Shown: piece by piece, positions 4,578 through 57,774 of the stretch
Numbering within the stretch: position 1 is the first letter of the stretch
Layout of the letters: every line of letters starts with the position of its first letter
Source: Bolinopsis microptera
Lineage: Eukaryota > Ctenophora > Tentaculata > Lobata > Bolinopsidae
Direction of reading: 5' to 3'
Length of the DNA: 64,000 bases
Assembly: GCF_026151205.1 (NCBI RefSeq)
Contig: NC_087078.1
Coordinates: forward strand, 3,861,675-3,925,674
Translations under genes and position numbers: made by a program
The notes under the pieces: generated by a model
The model's input: the letters and a program-made list of their open reading frames with translations, nothing else
What the model was told of the DNA's origin: nothing
Databases searched by the model: none

Positions 4578-5582
4578 GGTTTACAGAACAAGATAATTTA
4601 CCAGCAAATACTAGTTGTCAATTGATGCACTGATTACAAGGAAATGCCACATTTAGCATTTATTCTTAAAGAAAAGTCTTCAAGTTTACTTACTGTTAAT
4701 ATATCGTCATCATGGGAATTTTAGTATACTACTGAATAACTTCATTGTGGAGAATATTAATCTATCTTCGCAAAGTGTGAACCAAACAATATTAACATCA
4801 ATTAATAAGCAGAGAATAAAGCTGTTTAATAGAGAGAGAGAGAGTGTGCCTCAAATATAGCTGGAAACTATCGATCAGTCTCAATGAAGTTAGTGTAATG
4901 ACACAAGTAACACCCCCTATCAAGATTGCTGAGAAAGTGCGATGAGCCTGGATTATGGGCATTTGAAAGTGCGATTGTCACGTGTCACGGGGGGGGGGGG
5001 GGGGGGGGATTTTTGGCCTAATTCAGCATATCCTGTCAAATTGCAGTATAACTGCACGAAATTCGCCCCTTGTAGTCCAAATTTACATTTCTTATTACTA
5101 GAATTCATTCCTCAAAACAAGTGTTTCAAAAATTGTTCCAGATCCTTCCTCCTTGCGCCCTTTCTGAGAGTGAAACCTACTGTAACCATATTTTTCAAAA
5201 TTTACAGGAATTAATCCTTTGATATGACCCTTAAATTAGCGCAAGAAAATCTTGCTAGAATTACCATTTCACTGAATCTCCTGAAACTATTTTGAGAGAA
5301 TACGATATGCTTGAACTAAACTTATTTTGCTAGAACTGCTTGCACGCCCTAATATGCATTCAAAATCGTATTATTTGATATTTGTTATTGAAACTGTGTT
5401 TGAAAATTATCTCTATCGCCAAATTTTTCATTGCAAAAATAAGTACCAGTAAAATGATCTTCAACGGGCTTCGGACCGCCTACATATGGCATCATAGAAA
5501 AGTGGCTAACCAATCGCGCCACTGAGTATACATATATAATAATATTTGTGTATATATATACGCGCGTTCATGCTAATTGCTT
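4578..5582. other. Intergenic DNA with a poly-G run
   Basis: No gene seen. A run of 20 G at 4989-5008 follows GTGTCAC. A dinucleotide-like (GA)n stretch lies near 4831-4842. The last bases, GCTT (5579-5582), form the left 4-bp TSD of the copia element. Confidence 0.6.
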
Positions 5583-5731
5583 TGTTAAGTTGCTTTATAT
5601 CATTAACTATGTATTTCCCAGGGCTTTGCTGTATATAAGCGTATGACTTGATACTGTATGACTTGATACGATTCATTACTACCTTTCATATAACAACGGT
5701 GTAGTTACTGGTACCAAACACAAGGTTAACA
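5583..5731 (+). repeat. Copia 5' LTR
   Basis: Starts TGTTAAGTTGCTTTATA and ends GGTTAACA. It contains a short internal duplication of GTATGACTTGATAC and a TATATAAG box-like sequence suited to a Pol II promoter. Confidence 0.9.
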
Positions 5732-10286: not shown

Positions 10287-10303
10287 TGTTAAGTTGCTTT
10301 ATA
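10287..10303 (+). repeat. Copia 3' LTR, first 17 bp
   Basis: TGTTAAGTTGCTTTATA is identical to the start of the 5' LTR. Its last six bases, TTTATA (10298-10303), are repeated at 24386-24391 on the far side of the 14 kb insertion. Confidence 0.93.
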
Positions 10304-12926
10304 GGGGGGGGGGGTGTCATGTCCGTCTATGTCCGCCTATGTCCTGTCCTTTTTGGATTCTATGAGACAACGGACGTGTTTTTTGGGACATTGGCGGACA
10401 CGGACGGACATTGGCGGACACGGACGGACATTGGCGGACTCGGACGGACATTGGCGGACTCGGACGGACATTGGCGGACTCGGACGGACATTGGCGGACC
10501 CGGACGGACATTGGCGGACTTGGATGGACATTGGTGGACATTAGCGGACATTGGTGGACATTAGCGGACAATGTACTAATGTACAGAGTACTGAAGAGTA
10601 CTGAAGAGTACTGAAGAGTACTGAGGAGGATGGCTGAGAAGGATGGCTGAGGAGGATGGCTGAGGAGGATGACTGAGGAGGATGACTGAGGAGGATGACT
10701 GAGAGGGAGGAGAAGGATCAGGAAGACCCAGGAGGAGGAGGAGGAGGACCCAGAAGGAGGACCTAGGAGGAGGAGGAGGAGAACTGAGGAGGATGACTCA
10801 GGAGGAGGAGGACTCAGGAGGAGGACTAAGGAGGACTGAGAAGGAGGAGGACTGAGGAGGATGACTGAGAGGGAGGAGGAGGAGGAAGAGGAGGAAGAGG
10901 ACTGAGGAGGAGGAGGAGAAGGACTGAGGAGGAGAAGGAGGACCCAGGAGGAGGAGGACCCAGGAGGAGGAGGACCCAGGAAAAGGCCCCAGGAGGAGGA
11001 GGAGGACTGGGGAGGAGGAGAACTGTTGAGGACTGATGAGGAGGACTGAGGACGAGGAGGAGGAGTAGGAGGATGACTGAGGAGGGGAGGAGGAAGAGGA
11101 CTGGGGAGGATCAGGAAGACCCAGGAGGACCCAGGAGGAGGAGGAGGAGGAGGAGGACCCAGGAGGAGGAGGAGGACTGAGGAGGACTGAGGAGGAGGAC
11201 TGACGATGACTGAGAAGGAGGAGGACTGAGGAGTACTGCGGAGGATGGCTGAGGAGGATGGCTGGGGAGGATGGCTGAGGAGGATGACTGAGGAGGATGA
11301 CTGAGAGGGAGGAGGAGGAGGACTCAGGAGGAGGACTCAGAAGGAAGAGGAGGAGGACTCAGGAGGAGGACTTAGGAGAAATGAGAAGGAGGACTGAGGA
11401 GAACTGAGGAGGAGGAGGAGGAGGACTGAATAGGAGGAGGAGAAGGAGGGGGACTGGGAGATGACTGGGGAGGAGGAGGACTGATGAGAAGGATGAGGAG
11501 GAGGACCCAGGAGGAGGAGGACTGAGGACCCAGGAGGAAGAGGAGGAGGATGAAGAGGAGGAGGACCCAGGAGGAGGAGGACTGAGGAGGAGGACTGAGG
11601 AGGACTGAGGAGGACTGAGAAGGAGGAGGAGGACTGAGGAGGACTGAGAAGGAGGAGGAGGAGGACTGAATAGAAGGAGGAGGGGGACTGGGGGAGGGTA
11701 CCGCGACAATTGACCCCCCGACAATTGACCCCCCGACAATTGACCCCCCGACAATTGACCCCTATGTAATTACACTGGGGTCAATTGTCGCGAAATCTAG
11801 GCTTGAGTACGACAATTGACCCCCCGACAAGTAACCCCCCGACAATTGACCCCCCGACAATTGACCCCCTATGTAAATACACTGGGGTCAATTGTCGCGA
11901 AATCTAGGGCTCAGTACGACAATTGACCCCCCGACAATTGACCCCCCATGTATTTACACTGGGGTCAATTGATCGGGTTAGGGTCAGGGTCCTGGGTCAG
12001 GATCCTGGTTCAGGGTCCTGGGTCAGGGTTAGGGTTAGGGTTAGGGTTAGGGTTAGCGTTAGGGTTAGGGTTAGGGTTAGGGTTAGGGTTAGGGTTAGGG
12101 TTAGGGTCCTGGGTCAGGGTCAGGGTCATGGTTAGGGTTAGGATTAGGGTTAGGGTCCTGGGTCAGGGTTAGGGTTAGGGTTAGGGTCCTGGGTTAGGGT
12201 TAGGGTTAGGGTTAGGGTCAAGGTCAGGGTCAGGGTTAATTGTATTAAATCATATTGTCGGGGGGTCAATTGTCGGGAGGTCAATTGTCGGGGGGTCAAT
12301 TGTCGCCCACCCTGGGGGAGGACTGAGGAGGAGGATGGAGGACTGAGGAGAAGGATGAGGAGGAGGACTGAGGAGGACTGAGGACTGAGGAGGAAGAGGA
12401 GGAGGATGAAGAGGAGAAGGACCCAGGAGGAGGACCCAGGAGGAGGACTCAGGAGGAGGAGGAGGACTGGGGAGGAGGAGGACTGTTGAGGACTGATGAG
12501 GAGGACTGAGGACGAGGAGGAGGAGTAGGAGGAGGACTGAGGATTTGAGGAGGAGAGGAGGAAGAGGACTGAGGAAGATCAGGAAGACCCAGGGGGAGGA
12601 GGAGGAAGAGTAGGAGGAGGAAGCATCTAAATGTTATTTCCATTTTTGTCCGTTTTTGTCCATTTTTGTCCGTTTTTGTCCGCTCTATTTTTTGTCCGTT
12701 TTGAAAATATAGGGTACCGAACGGACAAAAAACATGATCCCCCTATAACAGCAAAAATTGAACATTTTATTTAGCAATTTAGGTGTCCATTAATGTCCGC
12801 CTATGTCCGCCTATGTCCGTCTATGTCCGCCTATGTCCGTCTATGTCTGCCTATGTCCGCCTATATCCGCCTATGTCCTGTCCTTTTTGGATTCTATGAG
12901 ACAAGCGGACATAGACGGACGTGACA
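10304..12926 (+). mobile_element. Non-coding TIR element, copy 1
   Basis: 2.6 kb with a left G-run and TGTCATGTCCG end, then about eight 20-bp units of the CGGACGGACATTGGCGGACT type (10395-10570). A long strand-biased purine tract of GGA/GAG repeats follows (10590-11700), then short inverted units built on GACAATTGACCCCCC (11700-11975), GGGTTA/GGGTCA arrays (11975-12236), more purine repeats (12310-12630), T-rich TTTTTGTCCG repeats (12645-12700) and TGTCCGYCTA repeats (12787-12890). Its right end, GACGGACGTGACA, lacks the terminal C-run and abuts gene sequence at 12927. No transposase frame is present, so it must be mobilised in trans. Superfamily unknown. Confidence 0.88.
11975..12236 (+). 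repeat. Telomere-like GGGTTA array in TIR element copy 1
   Basis: Repeats of GGGTTA mixed with GGGTCA and GGGTCCTGGGTCA. TTAGGG is the usual animal telomere repeat. Here it lies inside a transposable element, bordered by GACAATTGACC inverted units, and is duplicated in copy 2. Confidence 0.9.
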
Positions 12927-14831
12927 AGGTGTTTGAACAAAAGAGCACTTCTTGCACACCCACCGAGAGAGTTTACCGGTCCTACTCCTCTGGAGCTGTC
13001 CTCTCTAGTGACCTAACCAAAGCAGCAGGAAAACATTGCGCCTTTCCGAGCCAATGTAAGCTCTCTAAAACTGGGAGCAGTCTTCAAGCAGCAACCTGCA
13101 CCGAACTGCTGAGGATCAGAGACGAGATAACCAGCGGTGGATACACGGCCACATGCCGGCATGATCAAACCAACTGGAATGTTAGCCCTCCAGAAAAGAA
13201 AGGATGTGGTGCTGATGGAGTATGTACTGATCCTAATTACAGCATCTTTCTTCAGAGGAGACTTTCTCCAGCAGGTTGGTTTACACGTTTTTAATTTCCG
13301 GACGACATGTTTGTTGTAATTGTCTAACATTGTCACATTAAATCGTATCGCAACATTGTTCACCCGTTTCAGCCCGTTTTAGGATTACGTTTTGAAATTT
13401 TTAGACGGCATACAATCAATTTTTGTTAACCCTATTCCAATTATTCCGTCAAAGTTGACTATCTTTAATAAACCTCCACCAGGTCTACGCCGATCAAGTG
13501 TACAAGGACAATCTCTTCTAAAAGCTGGAGTACAAATAGACAGCCTGGTATCCTCCTCTTACGAGCGTTCTAAGAATTCTGCTAAACAAGTAGGATACTG
13601 GTTTGGGATCACTGAGGTTAAAGAGGAGCCTCTTCCTTTGGACAACGGTGTACACGGCGCCCAGGATTACGAGAGGAAGGCTGGATATGAACCAAAGACT
13701 GATTCTGATCGGGGTTCAGATATCAAGAAAATCATGCGAGTTCGTATGAGGAATTGGCTACAAGAGGATTGGGACAAGCAGACTGAAGGAGGGGTAAGGT
13801 TTACTTATAGCCATGGAGGTACAATGGAAAATGCTTTCGGACACTCATTTGACGAAGGTGACTGTGCTTGGTCGAAGCCAACAGACAAAACTTACGATCT
13901 GAACGAGCCTTTGACTGTGGTTCTAAGCCAAAAGGAATTTCCAAACGAAATGGAAGTTGGAACAAAGAAGATTGACTTGTTTGCGGTGCTGAGCCCAGAG
14001 CAGACACAGAAGATGGCCCAGTGCACTGAGCTGAGAAAGGACTATGAGGATAGTATTTCATCATCAGATACTACGATTCTAGCAGCTGACAAAGACAAGG
14101 ATCTTGAAATAACAGAAGATGAATTTACCAAATTCTGTGAAAATTCAGTGGATACTTCAAGAACATGCTCTGATCTATGGAAGTCTATCCTTTCGCTGCA
14201 AGCAAAGCCGTACTGGCAGAAAAACACAGTTTCCACTAGCTTTTTCATCGGAGAGCATGCTTACTTTAACGGGGGGTGGTATGAAAAGGAGCACAGTTAT
14301 GGTGCCTGGCAATTTCCTTATCGTGGGACAACACTGGACACAATCAGACCCACAGTTTCAGAAATGAAACAAATCCTAGCCCCTTTGGACGAGCTGATAA
14401 GAGCTGATCTTAATGATAAGGAAACGAAAGCAGTTGTAGACTGTATCCCACAAGAAAGCACAATCCAACAGTTCAGCAGCTGTGCTTCCTCTCTGCTGTC
14501 CTACAAGCCCATACCAACCCGCAATCGACCTGAAGATGACGTGCATCTGACAGATGATTACCCCATTCTAGGACAGAAATACGCCTACCCGACCACAATA
14601 ACCATCACCCCCGTCCCTAACCCTGTGATGAAACTAGCCATGTGTTTGGTGGAGAAGAGACACATCACAGCAGAGAGGATGTCCCAGCTAATGGGTTGTG
14701 AATTAGCCGGGTCTGCAAATCAGAAGGGTGCATCGTGCACACCCTCTGAAAATGGATACAGGCTCAACTCCGGATATCGTCACCAGTTTGTCTTTGTGGT
14801 GGTGCTGACAATTATCTATAACATGTTTTGA
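12927..14831 (+). CDS. 3' part of a cysteine-rich EF-hand surface protein gene
   Basis: Exon 12927-13274 (phase 1 end, CAG|GTTGGT) joins exon 13483-14831 (CACCAG acceptor) in frame, giving about 560 residues. An EF-hand loop, DKDKDLEITEDE, lies near 14092-14127 and predicts calcium binding. Cysteines are spaced as in an extracellular protein. A short motif recurs near both ends (KSTSCTPTERVYR and KGASCTPSENGYR), which suggests repeated modules. The last 16 residues are hydrophobic (HQFVFVVVLTIIYNMF), consistent with a GPI-anchor signal or membrane tail. The 5' exons and signal peptide are missing because TIR element copy 1 abuts the first visible exon at 12926/12927. I do not recognise the family. 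Whether it is still expressed is unknown. Confidence 0.6.
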
Positions 14832-16774
14832 GAGCGGGATAGTCGGAAACTTACTTGTATTTAGTAGATAAACTTTTTCTTTACAGTAGACTTATCGTAT
14901 AATTACATTTTTATATAAGAATATGTATCGAGATTCGAGAGGTGATAATTTAAGTTCCAAACAACTATCAGACTGGATGAATTAGAGATAGGTGATATTA
15001 TATTATATATAATTATATATTATAAAAGGAGTTGTTACGGTAAAGTTCCAGCATCGTGGTTTTGATAGGTCTCTCTCTACTCGAGCTGCTATGTCGAGAT
15101 CCAACATGGATTATTTATTTATGGCTGCGACGGCTTTGATTGTCCCAAACATTTTTTCTTTCTTTAAATATGAGCTGTCTCAAACTTGTCCAGCTTCTAG
15201 TTCTCGATAAAACCTTCCCAATATGATCATCGTGGAAAAACTCAAGCGGCACTGCTGTACATATAAACATTTCAGAGTTAGAAAATATCCGTGAGCAACG
15301 CTCAATTAGTTACATTTTTATGGCAAATCATATTGAACAACTAGCCAGTCAAAGTATCACTGCCATCAGAAAGTGAAATTGTGTGTACATCTGACTGACA
15401 AGAAACAATTAAAGTACCACAAGACGACATTACGACCAGATAATCGCTTTGTACCATCTGTTTGAGATTGGAGCTGTCTTTGAACTACCCATAAATACTT
15501 TCGGCAAAGAAAAAGTATCAAAAAAATCTGAAATGGTCATACTTCAGTACACTTTTAAAGAAAAGATGTATTATATCTTCTATTTTTATATATATAGCAC
15601 TAAAGAGGTTGCCTCAAAACTCACCTGGTACTAAAACTCACACGTGAGGCATTAGGAGCTGTAAAGCATATCATTTTGTAATTTTGTCATCCTTACTCTG
15701 CCTTCAGTTAGATTAACTCATGGGTCAAACACCCACCACTGCTGCTCTCTTGAGCCAGATGAAAACTATTTTATAACCATTCTTCATTTTTTAAAGCTAT
15801 TAACTGCTCAATGCTATTTTAAGACCGCCCACGGGCCAAGTGAGCAGTAATTAAGTAGCAGGTAAGTAGCAGGTAAGTGGCTAGTAAGTGGCCATTAGTG
15901 ACTAGCCGACCAGTGGCCGACCAGAAGCTTGCTATGAAGCGGTGGTGGTTGGTGTTTGACCTCATTCTCAATTCACTACTTACTATTTATAGGTTATTGA
16001 AGTTAGACCAAAGGTACCATTGTAACCTGAATAACTTGTTTGTTGATCCTCTTGCCCCGGGACGCTCTCGTATGAATTATGTAGCATTCCCTGGAGAGTG
16101 GGTCTGGAGCGGTGGTATATATTTGACTAAGTTACCATCACTTCTGGCAGGGAAAGCAGAATAGAACAATGATAGAACAATGATATTGTGCGGCATATTT
16201 TAGAGCAACTTGTCTAATAGACTTACTGACTAAATGACACATAAATGGCACGTGAGCGTCGTTGGAATGCTACATAATTCATATGAGGGCGTCTTGGCAA
16301 GGGACTTGAAGCAGCTGGAATATCAGACAAGAGAGACGTAGAATACAATAGGTCTCTTTTGTTCATATGTTATAGTATGAACATTGTAGCTCCAGAATTA
16401 GAACAAGTTTTATTGTTAGTCTTTGTTCCTATTCCTAGCTTTGTTCTCATAAAGCTAGGAATTGTTAAGCTTCGCTTTTGGATGGAGTTAAAGAGTTAAT
16501 AGTTTCTCAGTACTTTCCTGTTTATTTACCAGGGTGAAGTATAGAGTACATAGTTTTTATGTACCGTTTGTCAGCGGTGAGCGGCAGATTTCACACTTTC
16601 TTAACTATTCGGCCGCATTTGTTGTAATTTGCTCTCCGTATTAAGACAGCATCACGTTATTCGTAAATCAGAGAATATTCTTCGATTTCATAGCCATCTT
16701 TCATTATTTTGATCTTGAATAATAACCAGTAAATAGCAACAAGCAAAACTACATTTCAACGACAATAAGACGGC
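14832..16774. other. Intergenic DNA between the two carried genes
   Basis: Holds an AT-only quasi-palindrome near 14996-15026, short TAAGTAGCAGG repeats (15853-15895) and an inverted repeat at 16048-16303 (listed separately). No gene seen. Confidence 0.5.
16048..16303. repeat. Inverted repeat with ~43-bp arms
   Basis: Arm CTTGCC..CGCTCTCGTATGAATTATGTAGCATTCC (16051-16090, given in part) is mirrored by GGAATGCTACATAATTCATA and onward (16264-16303), with a few mismatches and a loop of about 170 bp. It may be a small foldback element. No TSD was identified. Confidence 0.7.
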
Positions 16775-19700
16775 ATGATACGAGTAATTGTTCAATTGGT
16801 GTTGTTGGCGTTGTACACAGAAGGTAAACATCTATAAATATCATGTTGACTTGTATTGCCCAATTTGAATTAAAACGTCGAACCAATCCGATACAATGTT
16901 AATTTGTTAAATACCATGTGTGTATACTAAAATAACCATCCTTCTGCAGGATCACTAGAATACAAGTTAGCAGAACACAACACCCCAACCACATTCAACA
17001 CATCATGTGACCTGATCATACTCTCAACAAAGAACTTAGTCTTTACGCAAGGCTGGGAGGGGGATATCATATTTTTAGCGGCCACTGAAGAAGTCCTCAC
17101 GATTGGACTGCATCCGGAAAGTGCCAGCTTGGCTATCAAGAATGATGTGTTTCTAGGAGATAGGGAACAGTGGGATTTCCAGTGGGTGGAACAAGTGTTT
17201 TATCCAAACCGTGATGTTAATGCTCAATGGGAGACTACCGTTAGCTTCAATGATGACGAGCTAGTGGTAACGTGTGAAGGGGAGGTTAGGTCGTTAGGAT
17301 GCTTTATTTCAAAGTTCATAATTGTATTAATTTCTTCAGTGAGAAACGCTTCTAGCAGTTTAACATTTCAACTGGTTGAAAGATATTAGATAATTACCAA
17401 GGACTAAAATTTGTTTGATATATTTCATACCTATTGGATCTTCCTAATGCATATTAGCTAATTTAATTGAAGAAAGTGCTTAAATGCTATTAATTTCAGA
17501 CTCTAAAGATTTTAGCTGAGATCCCGTATACTGAATTAACGGGCGATAAAGATACGTTTCTGGCCAGCATTGATTCAATCTCTTTTATTCTGGAGGGGGA
17601 TAAACCTGTGGCTAGTAGAATCTATTACACCCTCAGTTGTAAAGGTAAATGTTATAATGGTTTTACATATTATAGCATTGAGCAGTTAATACCTCAAACA
17701 CACCTTATTATTAATTTAGAAAACTTAGTAAAGAAGGTAACTAATATCTGCTATTTTCAGAATCATGTGCTGCAGGACAACGTTTTGATCAGAGTAACGG
17801 CTGTGTGGAATGTCCGGAAGATACGTGGAGTGTTGCTGGAAATACAAGTCCATCTTGTACAGACTGTCCAGAAGGAAAAGGTGTTGCAGCTGGGCAGGGA
17901 AAACATTTAAATGACTGCACATGGAGTGAGTTAGACTCTGTTATAACAAAACAGTTCATCAACAATCAACTGTCAACTTTGTAGATCGAAATTGTTATTT
18001 GTTACATTAGTAAAGAAAGTTAATATCTTCTATTTTCAGAATCATGTGCTGCAGGACAACGTCTTGACCAGGTTGACGGTTGTGTAAACTGCCCGGATAA
18101 TCAGTGGAGCTCTGATGGAAATAACGCGGCTACTTGCCAGATATGTCCTTCAGGGAAAGGGGTGGCAGCTGGAGAAGGGAGAAAGGAAAGTAATTGTGCT
18201 TGGGGTAAGTTCAGTTCTTCTCTTTGGACTTTTAGTTGTGAAGTGCAAACGCTAGAAGTTGTAAATTAAGATTTTCAAGATAATGAACAATGGTTACCAT
18301 CCTTCTTTTCAGAGCCGTGTGATGCTGGACAATTCCTTCAACAGAGTATCGGCTGTGTGGAATGTCCAGAAGATACGTGGAGTGTTGCTGGAAATACAAG
18401 TCCATCTTGTACAGACTGTCCAGAAGGAAAAGGTGTTGCAGCTGGGCAGGGAAAACATTTAAATGACTGCACATGGAGTGAGTTAGACTCTGTTATAACA
18501 AAACAGTTCATCAACAATCAACTGTCAACTTTGTAGATCGAAATTGTTATTTGTTACATTAGTAAAGAAGGTTAATATCTGCTATTTTCAGAATCATGTG
18601 ATGCAGGACAACGTTTTGATCAGAGTAACGGCTGTGTGGAATGTCCAGAAGATACGTGGAGTGTTGCTGGAAATACAAGTCCATCTTGTACAGACTGTCC
18701 AGAAGGAAAAGGTGTTGCAGCTGGGCAGGGAGAACATTTAAATGACTGCACATGGAGTGAGTTAGACTCTGTTATAACAAAACAGTTCATCAACAATCAA
18801 CTGTCAACTTTGTAGATCGAAATTGTTATTTGTTACATTAGTAAAGAAGGTTAATATCTGCTATTTTCAGAATCATGTGCTGCAGGACAACGTCTTGACC
18901 AGGTTGACGGTTGTGTAAACTGCCCGGATAATCAGTGGAGCTCTGATGGAAATAACGCAGCTACTTGCCAGATATGTCCTTCAGGGAAAGGGGTGGCAGC
19001 TGGAGAAGGGAGAAAGGAAAGTGATTGTGCTTGGGGTAAGTTCAGTTCTTCTCTTTGGACTTTTAGTTGTGAAGTGCAAACGCTAGAAGTTGTTTATTAC
19101 GATTTTCAAGATAATGAACAATGGTTACCTTCCTTCCTTTCAGAGCCGTGTGATGCTGGACAATTCCTTCATCAGAGTAACGGCTGTGTGGAATGTCCGG
19201 AAGATACGTGGAGTGTTGCTGGAAATACAAGTCCATCTTGTACAGACTGTCCAGAAGGAAAAGGTGTTGCAGCTGGGCAGGGAAAACATTTAAATGACTG
19301 CACATGGAGTGAGTTAGACTCTGTTATAACAAAACAGTTCATCAACAATCAACTGTCAACTTTGTAGATCGAAATTGTTATTTGTTACATTAGTAAAGAA
19401 AGTTAATATCTGCTATTTTCAGAATCATGTGATGTAGGACAACGTTTTGATCAGAGTAACGGCTGTGTGGAATGTCCAGAAGATACGTGGAGTGTTGCTG
19501 GAAATACAAGTCCATCTTGTACAGCCTGTCCAGAAGGAAAAGGTGTTGCAGCTGGGCAGGGAAAACATTTAAATGACTGCACATGGAGTGAGTTAGACTC
19601 TGTTATAACAAAACAGTTCATCAACAATCAACTGTCAACTTTGTAGATCGAAATTGTTATTTGTTACATTAGTAAAGAAGGTTAATATCTGCTATTTTCA

Positions 19701-20844
19701 GAATCATGTGCTGCAGGACAACGTTTTGATCAGAGTAACGGCTGTGTGGAATGTCCAGAAGATACGTGGAGTGTTGCTGGAAATACAAGTCCATCTTGTA
19801 CAGACTGTCCAGAAGGAAAAGGTGTTGCAGCTGGGCAGGGAAAACATTTAAATGACTGCACATGGAGTGAGTTAGACTCTGTTATAACAAAACAGTTCAT
19901 CAACAATCAACTGTCAACTTTGTAGATCGAAATTGTTATTTGTTACATTAGTAAAGAAGGTTAATATCTTCTATTTTCAGAATCATGTGCTGCAGGACAA
20001 CGTCTTGACCAGGTTGAGGGTTGTGTAAACTGCCCGGATAATCAGTGGAGCTCTGATGGAAATAACGCGGCTACTTGCCAGATATGTCCTTCAGGGAAAG
20101 GGGTGGCAGCTGGAGAAGGGAGAAAGGAAAGTAATTGTGCTTGGGGTAAGTTCAGTTCTTCTCTTTGGACTTTTAGTTGTGAAGTGCAAACGCTAGAAGT
20201 TGTAAATTAAGATTTTCAAGATAATGAACAATGGTTACCATCCTTCTTTTCAGAGCCGTGTGATGCTGGACAATTCCTTCAACAGAGTATCGGCTGTGTG
20301 GAATGTCCGGAAGATACGTGGAGTGTTGCTGGAAATACAAGTCCATCTTGTACAGACTGTCCAGAAGGAAAAGGTGTTGCAGCTGGAGAAGGGAAAAAAG
20401 AAAGTGATTGTGCTTGTAAGTTCAGTTCTTCTCTTGTACTTGTAATCAGAAATTACCTTATCGGACATTATTAGTAAGAAAATAATTATGAACGGACATT
20501 AAAATGCACGCTAGAACCCCCAGCGTCCAATACATGTCCGTTCAAATAAAGTCCGGTAACAGATAAACGTTTGTAGCGTTTTAATTATTTTGAACTAGCT
20601 TATAAGTACCGTTATTCAACCAAACTTATTTGTTATATTCTGACGAAAACCCCAAATTCCAGTCCCGTGTTCCAACCTGGGTTCAGCTTGGGATAACGTC
20701 GTAAAAGATTTCTCACTGCCGATAGAACACGGCCAATCAGTGGAGTTCAAATGTGATCAGAAATATGTCAACATGGGGGATAAAACTGCAACATGCAGTG
20801 ACGGATCCCTACAACCTGAACCAAACTGTAGAAAAACAAGTTAG
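16775..20844 (+). CDS. Secreted multi-module GCC2/GCC3 (ephrin-receptor-like) and sushi protein
   Basis: Fourteen exons join in phase. 16775-16823 holds ATG and a signal peptide (MIRVIVQLVLLALYTEG). 16950-17284 and 17500-17644 encode a unique N-terminal region. Ten phase 1-1 exons follow: 17761-17925, 18040-18204, 18313-18477, 18592-18756, 18871-19035, 19144-19308, 19423-19587, 19702-19866, 19981-20145 and 20254-20415. Exon 20663-20844 ends in TAG. The ten exons each encode a 55-residue, six-cysteine module (54 in the last), of the form ESCAAGQ...GC..CPE....C..CPEGKGVAAG...C.W, the GCC2/GCC3 or ephrin-receptor-like fold. The last exon has four cysteines in a sushi/CCP pattern (VEFKCDQKYVNMGDKTATC). 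The protein is probably extracellular matrix or adhesive; the exact role is unknown. The gene lies wholly inside the 14 kb composite insertion. No exon has an internal stop, so this copy could be functional. Confidence 0.8.
17761..20415 (+). repeat. Tandem exon duplications in the module gene
   Basis: Module exons fall into three types (A: GQRFDQ..GCVECPEDTWSV; B: GQRLDQVDGCVNCPDNQWSS; C: EPCDAGQF). They repeat in order A-B-C at an exact 831-bp period (17761, 18592, 19423), with one extra A exon at 19702. Exon-to-exon spacing is 279, 273 or 279 bp. Introns are nearly identical between units, so the expansion is recent. Confidence 0.9.
20456..20556. mobile_element. pogo-related MITE in the module gene's last intron
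   Basis: A 101-bp sequence starting CCTTATCGGACATTATT and ending TTTGAAC-type sequence inverted (...CAAATAAAGTCCGG), with TA on each side (20454-20455 and 20557-20558). Ends and internal ATGTCCGTTCAAATAAAGTC match the larger pogo-type element at 52620-53514, so this is a miniature derivative. Confidence 0.75.
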
Positions 20845-21851
20845 AAAATTAAAGATTTTAGTTCTCACATTCTTACGAGTGGTAACTGTCGAATGTCGAT
20901 ACAACATTATCATTTTTGTATAACCATGGCTATATTTTACAATTTAAGAGAAAGAAAACGTGAACTTTGTTTGAAAATCATATTGTAGGGATATGATTTT
21001 CACACAAATTAACGCTATGTTATTTATCTTGCATTTTCAGTAAACTTTGGATCATGTGAACAATCTGATACGATCAAGTGATAACATATGATCAGTCAGT
21101 CTTCACAATTAACATTTTACGTTTTAGGTTAGTATTGGTAGTAAGAACTGCTGCAGCCGTTAAATGCAGTCAGCACTATCAAAATCTTTATGATCTGTTC
21201 GTCCAACAAGGATTCTAGTACACAGTAAAGAAATTGTTGGTGTGAAAATCTTGCATGAGATGGTCACTGGCGTTCCTGTGAAGTCATTTGGGCTGGACAG
21301 ATTTGGTGTAGGGGCATAAACGCTTAAACTCTTAAGTAGGCGTATCTTACAATTAGTAGGCGTATCTTACAATTAGTAGGCGTATCTTACAATTAGTAGG
21401 CGTATCTTACAATTAGTAGGCGTATCTTACAATTCCTCGGGGATCACAACAAAAATGTAGTATCGTGCTGAAATGACAAGTTTGTGACGGTTCATGATGA
21501 CAGTTCTCACTCGAGAAAACTGTCAATATTTTAGATGTCGTATTATCAAGTGTACCACCCTCCTGAAACTAACTTCATAAAACGGGTCACGTGACTAAAC
21601 ACAGGTCTGTATTAATCACGGCAGGTAATATAACCAGGTTAATGTATATGTAGTTCTACATTCTTTTCTAATGGTGATCACAGCTGAAGACTACTTAACG
21701 AATTGTTGCATCTTCAAAAAATTCTCCATCTCACATTTTATCCTAATGTCTGGTGATTATCATGGCCAATAACTCTACTGGTTCCTTCGCTTTCTCGGCT
21801 CAAAAGGTAAATGAAATAATTAGTAAAATAGTTAATTAACCATTTTTTAGT
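20845..21851. other. Downstream flank of the module gene
   Basis: No gene seen. It contains a 20-bp tandem repeat at 21335-21434 (listed separately) and ends against the G24 run of TIR element copy 2. Confidence 0.5.
21335..21434. repeat. 20-bp tandem repeat, five copies
   Basis: Unit AGTAGGCGTATCTTACAATT, five nearly perfect head-to-tail copies. Confidence 0.95.
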
Positions 21852-24385
21852 GGGGGGGGGGGGGGGGGGGGGGGGTGTCATGTCCGTCTATGTCCGCCTA
21901 TGTCCTGTCCTTTTTGGATTCTATGAGACAACGGACGTGTTTTTTGGGACATTGGCGGACACGGACGGACATTGGCGGACACGGACGGACATTGGCGGAC
22001 TCGGACGGACATTGGCGGACTCGGACGGACATTGGCGGACTCGGACGGACATTGGCGGACCCGGACGGACATTGGCGGACTTGGATGGACATTGGTGGAC
22101 ATTAGCGGACATTGGTGGACATTAGCGGACAAACATTTTGAGGACTGAAGAGTACTGAAGAGTACTGAAGAGTACTGAAGAGTACTGAGGAGGATGGCTG
22201 AGAAGGATGGCTGAGGAGGATGGCTGAGGAGGATGACTGAGGAGGATGACTGAGGAGGAGGAGGACTCAGGAGGAGGACTAAGGAGGACTGAGAAGGAGG
22301 AGGACAGAGGAGGATGACTGAGAGGGAGGAGGAGGAGGAAGAGGAGGAAGAGGACTGAGGAGGAGGAGGAGAAGGACTGAGGAGGAGAAGGAGGACCCAG
22401 GAGGAGGAGGACCCAGGAGGAGGAGGACCCAGGAAAAGGCCCCAGGAGGAGGAGGAGGACTGGGGAGGAGGAGAACTGTTGAGGACTGATGAGGAGGACT
22501 GAGGACGAGGAGGAGGAGTAGGAGGAGGACTGAGGAGGGGAGGAGGAAGAGGACTGGGGAGGATCAGGAAGACCCAGGAGGACCCAGGAGGAGGAGGAGG
22601 AGGAGGACCCAGGAGGAGGAGGAGGACTGAGGAGGACTGAGGAGGAGGACTGACGATGACTGAGAAGGAGGAGGACTGAGGAGTACTGCGGAGGATGGCT
22701 GAGGAGGATGGCTGGGGAGGATGGCTGAGGAGGATGACTGAGGAGGATGACTGAGAGGGAGGAGGAGGAGGACTCAGGAGGAGGACTCAGAAGGAAGAGG
22801 AGGAGGACTCAGGAGGAGGACTTAGGAGAAATGAGAAGGAGGACTGAGGAGAACTGAGGAGGAGGAGGAGGAGGAGGACTGAATAGGAGGAGGAGAAGGA
22901 GGGGGACTGGGAGAGGACTGGGGAGGAGGAGGACTGATGAGAAGGATGAGGAGGAGGACCCAGGAGGAGGAGGACTGAGGACCGAGGAGGAAGAGGAGGA
23001 GGATGAAGAGGAGGAGGACCCAGGAGGAGGAGGACTGAGGAGGAGGACTGAGGAGGACTGAGGATGACTGAGAAGGAGGAGGAGGACTGAGGAGGACTGA
23101 GAAGGAGGAGGAGGAGGACTGAATAGGAGGAGGAGGGGGACTGGGGGAGGGTACCGCGACAACTGACCCCCCGACAATTGACCCCCCGACAATTGACCCC
23201 CCGACAATTGACCCCTATGTAATTACACTGGGGTCAATTGTCGCGAAATCTAGGCTTGAGTACGACAATTGACCCCCCGACAATTAACCCCCCGACAATT
23301 GACCCCCCGACAATTGACCCCCTATGTAAATACACTGGGGTCAATTGTCGCGAAATCTAGGGCTCAGTACGACAATTGACCCCCCGACAATTGACCCCCC
23401 ATGTAATTACACTGGGGTCAATTGATCGGGTTAGGGTCAGGGTCCTGGGTCAGGATCCTGGTTCAGGGTCCTGGGTCAGGGTTAGGGTTAGGGTTAGGGT
23501 TAGGGTTAGCGTTAGGGTTAGGGTTAGGGTTAGGGTTAGGGTTAGGGTTAGGGTTAGGGTTAGGGTCCTGGGTCAGGGTCAGGGTCATGGTTAGGGTTAG
23601 GATTAGGGTTAGGGTCCTGGGTCAGGGTTAGGGTTAGGGTTAGGGTCCTGGGTCAGGGTTAGGGTTAGGGTCAAGGTCAGGGTCAGGGTTAATTGTATTA
23701 AATCATATTGTCGGGGGGTCAATTGTCGGGAGGTCAATTGTCGGGGGGTCAATTGTCGCCCACCCTGGGGGAGGACTGAGGAGGAGGATGGAGGACTGAG
23801 GAGAAGGATGAGGAGGAGGACTGAGGAGGACTGAGGACTGAGGAGGAAGAGGAGGAGGATGAAGAGGAGGAGAAGAACCCAGGAGGAGGACCCAGGAGGA
23901 GGACTCAGGAGGAGGAGGAGGACTGGGGAGGAGGAGGACTGTTGAGGACTGATGAGGAGGACTGAGGACGAGGAGGAGGAGTAGGAGGAGGACTGAGGAT
24001 TTGAGGAGGAGAGGAGGAAGAGGACTGAGGAAGATCAGGAAGACCCAGGGGGAGGAGGAGGAAGAGTAGGAGGAGGAAGCATCTAAATGTTATTTCCATT
24101 TTTGTCCGTTTTTGTCCATTTTTGTCCGTTTTTGTCCGTTCTATTTTTTGTCCGTTTTGAAAATATAGGGTACCGAACGGACAAAAAACATGATCCCCCC
24201 TATAACAGCAAAAATTGAACATTTTATTTAGCAATTTAGGTGTCCATTAATGTCCGCCTATGTCCGCCTATGTCCGTCTATGTCCGCCTATGTCCGTCTA
24301 TGTCCGCCTATGTCCGCCTATGTCCTGTCCTTTTTGGATTCTATGAGACAAGCGGACATAGACGGACGTGACACCCCCCCCCCCC
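21852..24385 (+). mobile_element. Non-coding TIR element, copy 2
   Basis: Same order of parts as copy 1 and almost identical in sequence: G24 run, TGTCATGTCCG end, 20-bp GGACATTGGCGGAC repeats, purine tract, GACAATTGACC units, GGGTTA array (about 23427-23690), and right end GACGGACGTGACA with C12. It differs mainly by small indels in the repeats, for example a shorter purine tract after 22130. Its right end adjoins the duplicated TTTATA of the copia LTR. Confidence 0.9.
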
Positions 24386-24391
24386 TTTATA

Positions 24392-24523
24392 TCATTAACT
24401 ATGTATTTCCCAGGGCTTTGCTGTATATAAGCGTATGACTTGATACTGTATGACTTGATACGATTCATTACTACCTTTCATATAACAACGGTGTAGTTAC
24501 TGGTACCAAACACAAGGTTAACA
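24392..24523 (+). repeat. Copia 3' LTR, remainder
   Basis: Continues the copia LTR from base 18 to its end, GGTTAACA. By eye it is identical to the 5' LTR at 5600-5731. GCTT follows at 24524-24527 and matches the GCTT before the 5' LTR. Confidence 0.95.
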
Positions 24524-24678
24524 GCTTGACTCGAAAAAATACTACTAGATTTTCGAGAATTTCCAGGAACATTTTTCATTGAAAAGTTACCTTCTGCAAA
24601 AGGCCAATGACCAAGTTAATAGTTAATAATGGTTAATAGCCAATAGTTCTATGTTTATTGTTTACAGTATGCACTGAC

Positions 24679-41320: not shown

Positions 41321-57774
<16,454 letters not shown>

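Follow-up and report, generated by a model that had tools for sequence, protein, structure and literature searches.

How did a 14,082 bp block carrying two host genes come to lie inside the long terminal repeat (LTR) of a copia element in Bolinopsis microptera? The window, the 64,000 nt of contig NC_087078.1 that were analysed, contains no N, and it was compared with the whole of assembly GCF_026151205.1 (264.65 Mb, 232 contigs). The block (10304-24385) is laid out as TSD-E1-A/B-E2-TSD, in which TSD is a target-site duplication, E1 and E2 are two direct copies of one terminal inverted repeat (TIR) element that bound the block, and A and B are segments related to host genes elsewhere. On balance, the block probably entered the copia LTR as one unit, with E1 supplying the 5' end and E2 the 3' end.

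The interrupted LTR and the outer duplication

The copia element starts at 5583. Its 3' LTR is split by the block, and the target site is composed of the following features.

5579-5582, forward strand: GCTT, left copy, directly outside the 5' LTR, read as copia's own target duplication
5583-5731, forward strand: copia 5' LTR, 149 bp, the empty-site reference
10287-10303, forward strand: first 17 bases of the copia 3' LTR, ending GCTTTATA; the left TTTATA is 10298-10303
24386-24523, forward strand: remainder of the copia 3' LTR, starting TTTATATCATT; the right TTTATA is 24386-24391
24524-24527, forward strand: GCTT, right copy, directly outside the 3' LTR, read likewise as copia's own target duplication

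Joining 10287-10303 to 24392-24523 restores the 5' LTR at 149/149 letters, so the 5' LTR serves as the empty-site sequence and TTTATA is the part that was duplicated. Because the LTR rejoins exactly and GCTT flanks the whole, although 4 bp alone would agree by chance in about 1/256 of cases, both halves are most likely one copia copy and the DNA between them an insertion with TTTATA duplicated. The first-pass annotation of this DNA had reported an LTR cut after base 17 and resuming 14,082 bp later with TTTATA at both junctions, and these coordinates and sequences are as it claimed. The inverted outer ends that it described, G11-TGTCATGTCCGTC and GACGGACGTGACA-C12, are likewise read at the block edges. 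As the LTR target supplies an exact empty site, other strains can be genotyped for the event.

The block is bounded by two elements with family-like outer ends.

10304-12926, forward strand: E1, TIR element; outer end G11-TGTCATG, inner end GACGGACGTGACA without a C-run
21852-24385, forward strand: E2, TIR element; inner end G24-TGTCATG, outer end GACGGACGTGACA-C12

The TIR arms are 40-41 bp long and 90% complementary, G/C runs counted in. Ends of this family follow the pattern of a G run and then TGTCAYGTCC, which with GGG has 702 matches genome-wide (363 forward, 339 reverse; a reversed-pattern control gave 0), and these 702 end matches correspond to roughly 350 elements. Neither E1 nor E2 was seen to contain a transposase, an autonomous copy not having been searched for, and the transposon is apparently non-autonomous. 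Terminal G/C runs range from 7 to 34 bases among measured copies (for example L032, L055 and L065) and directly abut the TSD.

Target-site duplications were scored by script in copies with both ends fetched, one-ended copies being left out; at least 6 bp were required, and at most 2 bases of the G/C run were permitted within the TSD. All 8 ordinary copies that could be tested have a TSD, 6 bp long or one base longer if a base of the run is counted, and with the composite the count is 9/9 pairs of ends. Pairing ends of different elements with equal leeway gave a TSD in 2/72 cases, and 15 distinct left by 32 distinct right flanks gave 12/480, true pairs included. Two additional C1 copies, too short for the script, show a 6-bp TSD by eye. 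The expectation that other copies of this element would carry 6-bp TSDs is thus borne out.

At the block, the left flank of E1 equals the right flank of E2 (TTTATA), and the duplication, which measures 6 bp, or 7 if one C of the C-run is counted in, is found at the outer edges only; in the scripted test neither E1 alone nor E2 alone has a TSD. Two independent insertions of E1 and E2 are thereby ruled out, as each should own a TSD. Proximity by itself is insufficient to explain the pattern, since a neighbouring direct pair on C1 (9.075 and 9.091 Mb, chosen by eye among the 100 of 702 ends listed) has separate TSDs. A TSD common to the outermost ends and absent from either element singly is the mark of a unit that runs from the E1 5' end to the E2 3' end.

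The same pattern is predicted by homologous recombination between a single E at TTTATA and a circle or other chromosome bearing B-E-A, which would likewise produce direct copies of E with this outer TSD; the outer runs are indeed similar (G11/C12) and the inner ones dissimilar (none/G24). We consider this origin improbable. It presupposes a chimeric A-B-E circle or locus, while A and B are joined only in the block among the candidates described below, and the alignment of E1 with E2 shows no sign of a recombination switch, though informative sites are few.

E1, E2 and the family they belong to

E1 and E2 had been called near-identical. They are the same element in direct copies, but their alignment shows 22 substitutions across 2482 bases, with 9 in a single cluster, and 9 gap events that include one of 111-114 bp. 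These differences rule out that the pair is a very recent exact duplication, and E2 is nearer to a copy on C13 (8/2369 substitutions) than to E1; E1 and the C13 copy differ at 25/2486, and a copy on C5 is more distant. The inner end of E1 is one of only five exact ends genome-wide with a non-G base before TGTCA, as against the 702 with at least GGG. In another of these five (L037) the run is still present behind one odd base. Since the E1 inner end lacks its C-run, the E1 5' end would need another 3' end for transposition, and that of E2 is the next.

Both elements hold a nested repeat that defines a rare subtype.

11703-12306, forward strand: nested CAATTG/TTAGGG module in E1, a repeat present elsewhere too
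23156-23759, forward strand: nested CAATTG/TTAGGG module in E2, counterpart of the E1 module

A 25-base piece of the module has 366 genome-wide matches at no more than 1 mismatch. The left junction between E and module is exact in four places, E1, E2, C5:15455295 and C13:12204849. A genome-wide search allowing up to 2 mismatches added a fifth, C8:18123769, which carries 2, and the surrounding C8 stretch showed no element ends. The C5 and C13 copies are ordinary insertions with their own TSDs, ATTATA and TTCTTT, respectively. At C4:1501669-1502329 the nested-module piece recurs 8 times at about 91-bp spacing, as a small tandem array.

Long members of the family owe their length to various causes. 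L064 contains tandem internal copies; L065 holds a nested element, in which a 1093-codon frame has matches to reverse transcriptase and endonuclease families; and the middle 2.2 kb of both L087 and L088 are GGA-rich and satellite-like. General gene capture by the family is unsupported by these members.

Segments A and B and their joints

The DNA between E1 and E2 comprises the following.

12803-13294, forward strand: E1/gene A open frame, with an ATG within the E1 3' end in frame with gene A exon 1
12926-13274, forward strand: remainder of gene A exon 1; 12926 is common to the element end
12927-15025, forward strand: segment A, truncated gene A and downstream DNA
13483-14831, forward strand: last exon of gene A through the stop; hydrophobic C-terminus, glycosylphosphatidylinositol (GPI)-signal-like by eye only
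15024-15027, no strand: A/B joint, within a TA-rich repeat, overlap at most 1 bp
15027-21851, forward strand: segment B, with all of gene B, 1.7 kb of DNA before it and 1.0 kb after it
16775-20844, forward strand: gene B as modelled, 14 exons, 785 codons, without frameshift or internal stop

Relatives of 12927-21851, and statements that a copy or donor is lacking, refer to the best 40 of 871 scored candidates in the assembly. The first-pass annotation had taken this 8.9 kb for unique DNA; it is instead made of two segments, one related to a C7 gene and one to a C6 gene, joined at about 15026. The nearest relative of segment A is C7:20039700-20041665 (reverse strand), 98.8% identical over 1970. 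Further C7 relatives lie at 18.83 Mb (two pieces, 98.3 and 98.6%), 18.835 Mb (93%) and 13.53 Mb (87%), and those on C13 reach 83-85%. Compared with the C7 gene at 20.04 Mb, gene A has lost its first 49 codons, including the ATG and a signal-peptide-like stretch. It had been described as the 3' half of a gene, but it keeps 565 of 614 codons, without a stop; these 565 residues gave no Pfam hit at E 0.1. The open frame predicts an E1-derived head of 41 codons on the truncated gene.

E-family sequence also occurs near paralogues of gene A. On C7 at 13.53 Mb, a short piece with the family's terminal sequence (L014, 4857-4937) lies about 1.4 kb upstream of a paralogue. The module-bearing C13 copy (C13:12203721-12206226) lies about 8.6 kb upstream, in the same orientation, of the paralogue at C13:12193184-12195123, and this proximity is possibly not due to chance.

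Segment B is most closely related to C6:2042849-2049025 (reverse strand), with best exon matches of 94.6-100% and flanks of 79.6 to 98.7%. A complete gene for a secreted protein had been proposed here, and the 14-exon model is intact, with a start that is signal-peptide-like by eye. Gene B has ten TNFR-like cysteine-rich repeat exons (window 17761-20415) and the C6 relative seven; from this comparison, the exon number seems to change through tandem duplication or loss. A comparison of B with C6 across 1038 coding bases, drawn from 6 of the 14 exons, gives 16 silent and 15 replacement differences. With pS at 0.072 and pN at 0.018, B was probably a separate, constrained copy before it arrived at the LTR site.

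A second, native copy of 12927-21851 was anticipated. The segments do have separate relatives on C7 and C6, but the only full match is the block's own sequence, an outcome that cut-and-paste would also leave. No near-identical donor of B was found, so that relocation of B is as likely as its duplication and the proposed direct route to gene duplication is unproven. The missing donor favours cut-and-paste over copying; a donor could also lie on an unassembled haplotype.

The relatives of A and B elsewhere, on C7 and C6, together with the 702 end matches of the E family, are what a misassembly would draw on, in which the A-B stretch was misthreaded through repeated E copies. Such a chimera is unlikely. 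The partners at the E1/A and A/B joints overlap by at most 1 bp, E1 and E2 are told apart by the 111-114 bp indel and further indels, and the window is free of N. A and B are also distinct from every listed copy and hence are not collapsed duplicates.

The inner joints were read by eye. At the E1/A joint, GACGGACGTGACA is followed by AGGTG with one A in common, and the E1 C-run is absent. At the A/B joint the flanks of E1 and E2 are fused at a single mid-block site (about 15026), the arrangement of a Composite Insertion, and this A-B junction was found nowhere else among the candidates. At the B/E2 joint the C6 relative reads TTTTTTAGT-AGAATTC and the window TTTTTTAGT-G24-E2. The right edge of segment B coincides with the exact E2 terminus and has TTTAGT before it, while the C6 relative continues TTTAGTAGAATTC. 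This joint looks as expected of an ordinary 5' insertion edge.

These joints bear on growth in place, by which a lone E inserted at TTTATA and a later break at its 3' C-run was repaired by template switches from E to A, to B and back to E. Two events would suffice, E1 and E2 are of one rare subtype, and their divergence is compatible with identical LTRs (0/149). The sequences where the inner joints fall (a C-run, a TA repeat and a G-run, with overlaps of 0-1 bp by eye) may also be obstacles to replication. Copying keeps its donor, however, yet the nearest B relative is 7% off at silent sites, and the B-E2 joint lies exactly at an element terminus, a rare target for a random switch. We regard growth in place as rather unlikely.

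Elsewhere in the window, 46842-47633 forms an imperfect palindrome with a 95% inverted self-match across 771 aligned bases, and the right half contains tandem-repeat arrays at 41704-42099, 47601-48192, 49439-50142 and 51873-52283.

Proposed insertion as a unit and comparison with known systems

If the block inserted as a unit, a transposase would have acted on the outermost ends, 5' in E1 and 3' in E2, and carried along everything between. Earlier, E2 would have inserted beside B, and E1 would have been fused to the broken gene A through end joining. End joining would also have linked A to B, either beforehand or in the same event, after which E1-A-B-E2 as a whole would have integrated at TTTATA. 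In a more specific form, alternative transposition would have moved the intact 14-exon gene together with its promoter region and created the chimera of gene A with its E1-derived head (in-frame ATG, 41 codons); as a whole, this version is a tentative one and has a low probability. The block is a plausible way for the genome to move whole genes. Of the composite transposition originally proposed, the outer-only TSD, the direct TIR copies and the host genes between them stand, and movement as a unit is unproven against growth in place.

Several observations weigh against insertion as a unit. The assembly yielded no donor locus bearing E1-A or B-E2, and for this reason movement as a unit is something that we infer. 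The model requires several prior events (the E1/A fusion, the A/B fusion and E2 next to B), and an origin by re-replication would keep the donor in place. No autonomous partner is known, none having been systematically sought. No substitution in the alignment unites E1 and E2 against the C13 and C5 copies; E1, E2 and the C13 copy thus appear to have split at about the same time, and E1 and E2 as a local pair are not supported by shared substitutions. Host genes were found in 0 of 4 long family members inspected, two of them sampled in their middle 2.2 kb only, and nothing suggests that cargo is common in the family. Of six maize Composite Insertion joints sequenced, as described in PMC4270019, three arose by end joining and three by homologous recombination, and the latter share belongs on the same side.

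The divergences give no clear answer on the age of the insertion: segment A differs from its nearest copy at 22/1967 sites, E1 and E2 differ at 13 point sites outside the cluster, and the LTRs at 0/149.

The layout of the block has counterparts in several systems. In bacterial composite transposons the cargo lies between two element copies and the TSD is found at the outer ends only. The arrangement here is alike, but the cargo consists of multi-exon genes and no transposase is evident in either E1 or E2. The giant transposing element of Drosophila is a gene-carrying unit flanked by foldback elements, in an animal; both it and the block are gene-carrying units between repeats, and the elements differ. 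Alternative transposition has been shown experimentally in maize, and the macrotransposons of Huang and Dooner (2008) reportedly use the 5' end of one element and the 3' end of the other.

If the process repeats in this family, it would be a transposon route for moving and re-heading intron-containing genes outside plants. A natural, dateable case elsewhere with a complete intron-containing gene would mean that small transposons can relocate or duplicate whole genes, promoters included, and assemble chimeric ones.

The closest comparison is with maize. Closely linked, direct-oriented maize elements move jointly as macrotransposons (Huang and Dooner 2008, as cited in PMC4270019); compared with these, the block is natural and undated, its mobility is putative, and its cargo was already a fusion. 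The Ac/fAc Composite Insertions of maize arise by alternative (reversed-ends) transposition with re-replication and have the structure of a macrotransposon (PMC4270019). In that case donor locus, twin products and transposase have all been identified, whereas no donor of the block was found. The block further differs in that the relatives of A and B lie on different contigs (C7 and C6), which bears on a donor order B-E2 ... E1-A at one locus, in the damaged inner end of E1, and in a TSD of 6 rather than 8 bp. The size is comparable, 14,082 bp against 19,341 and 23,238 bp. Like the Composite Insertions described there, some alleles of which formed by end joining, the block has a TSD at its outer edges, two related terminal transposons and flanks joined mid-block.

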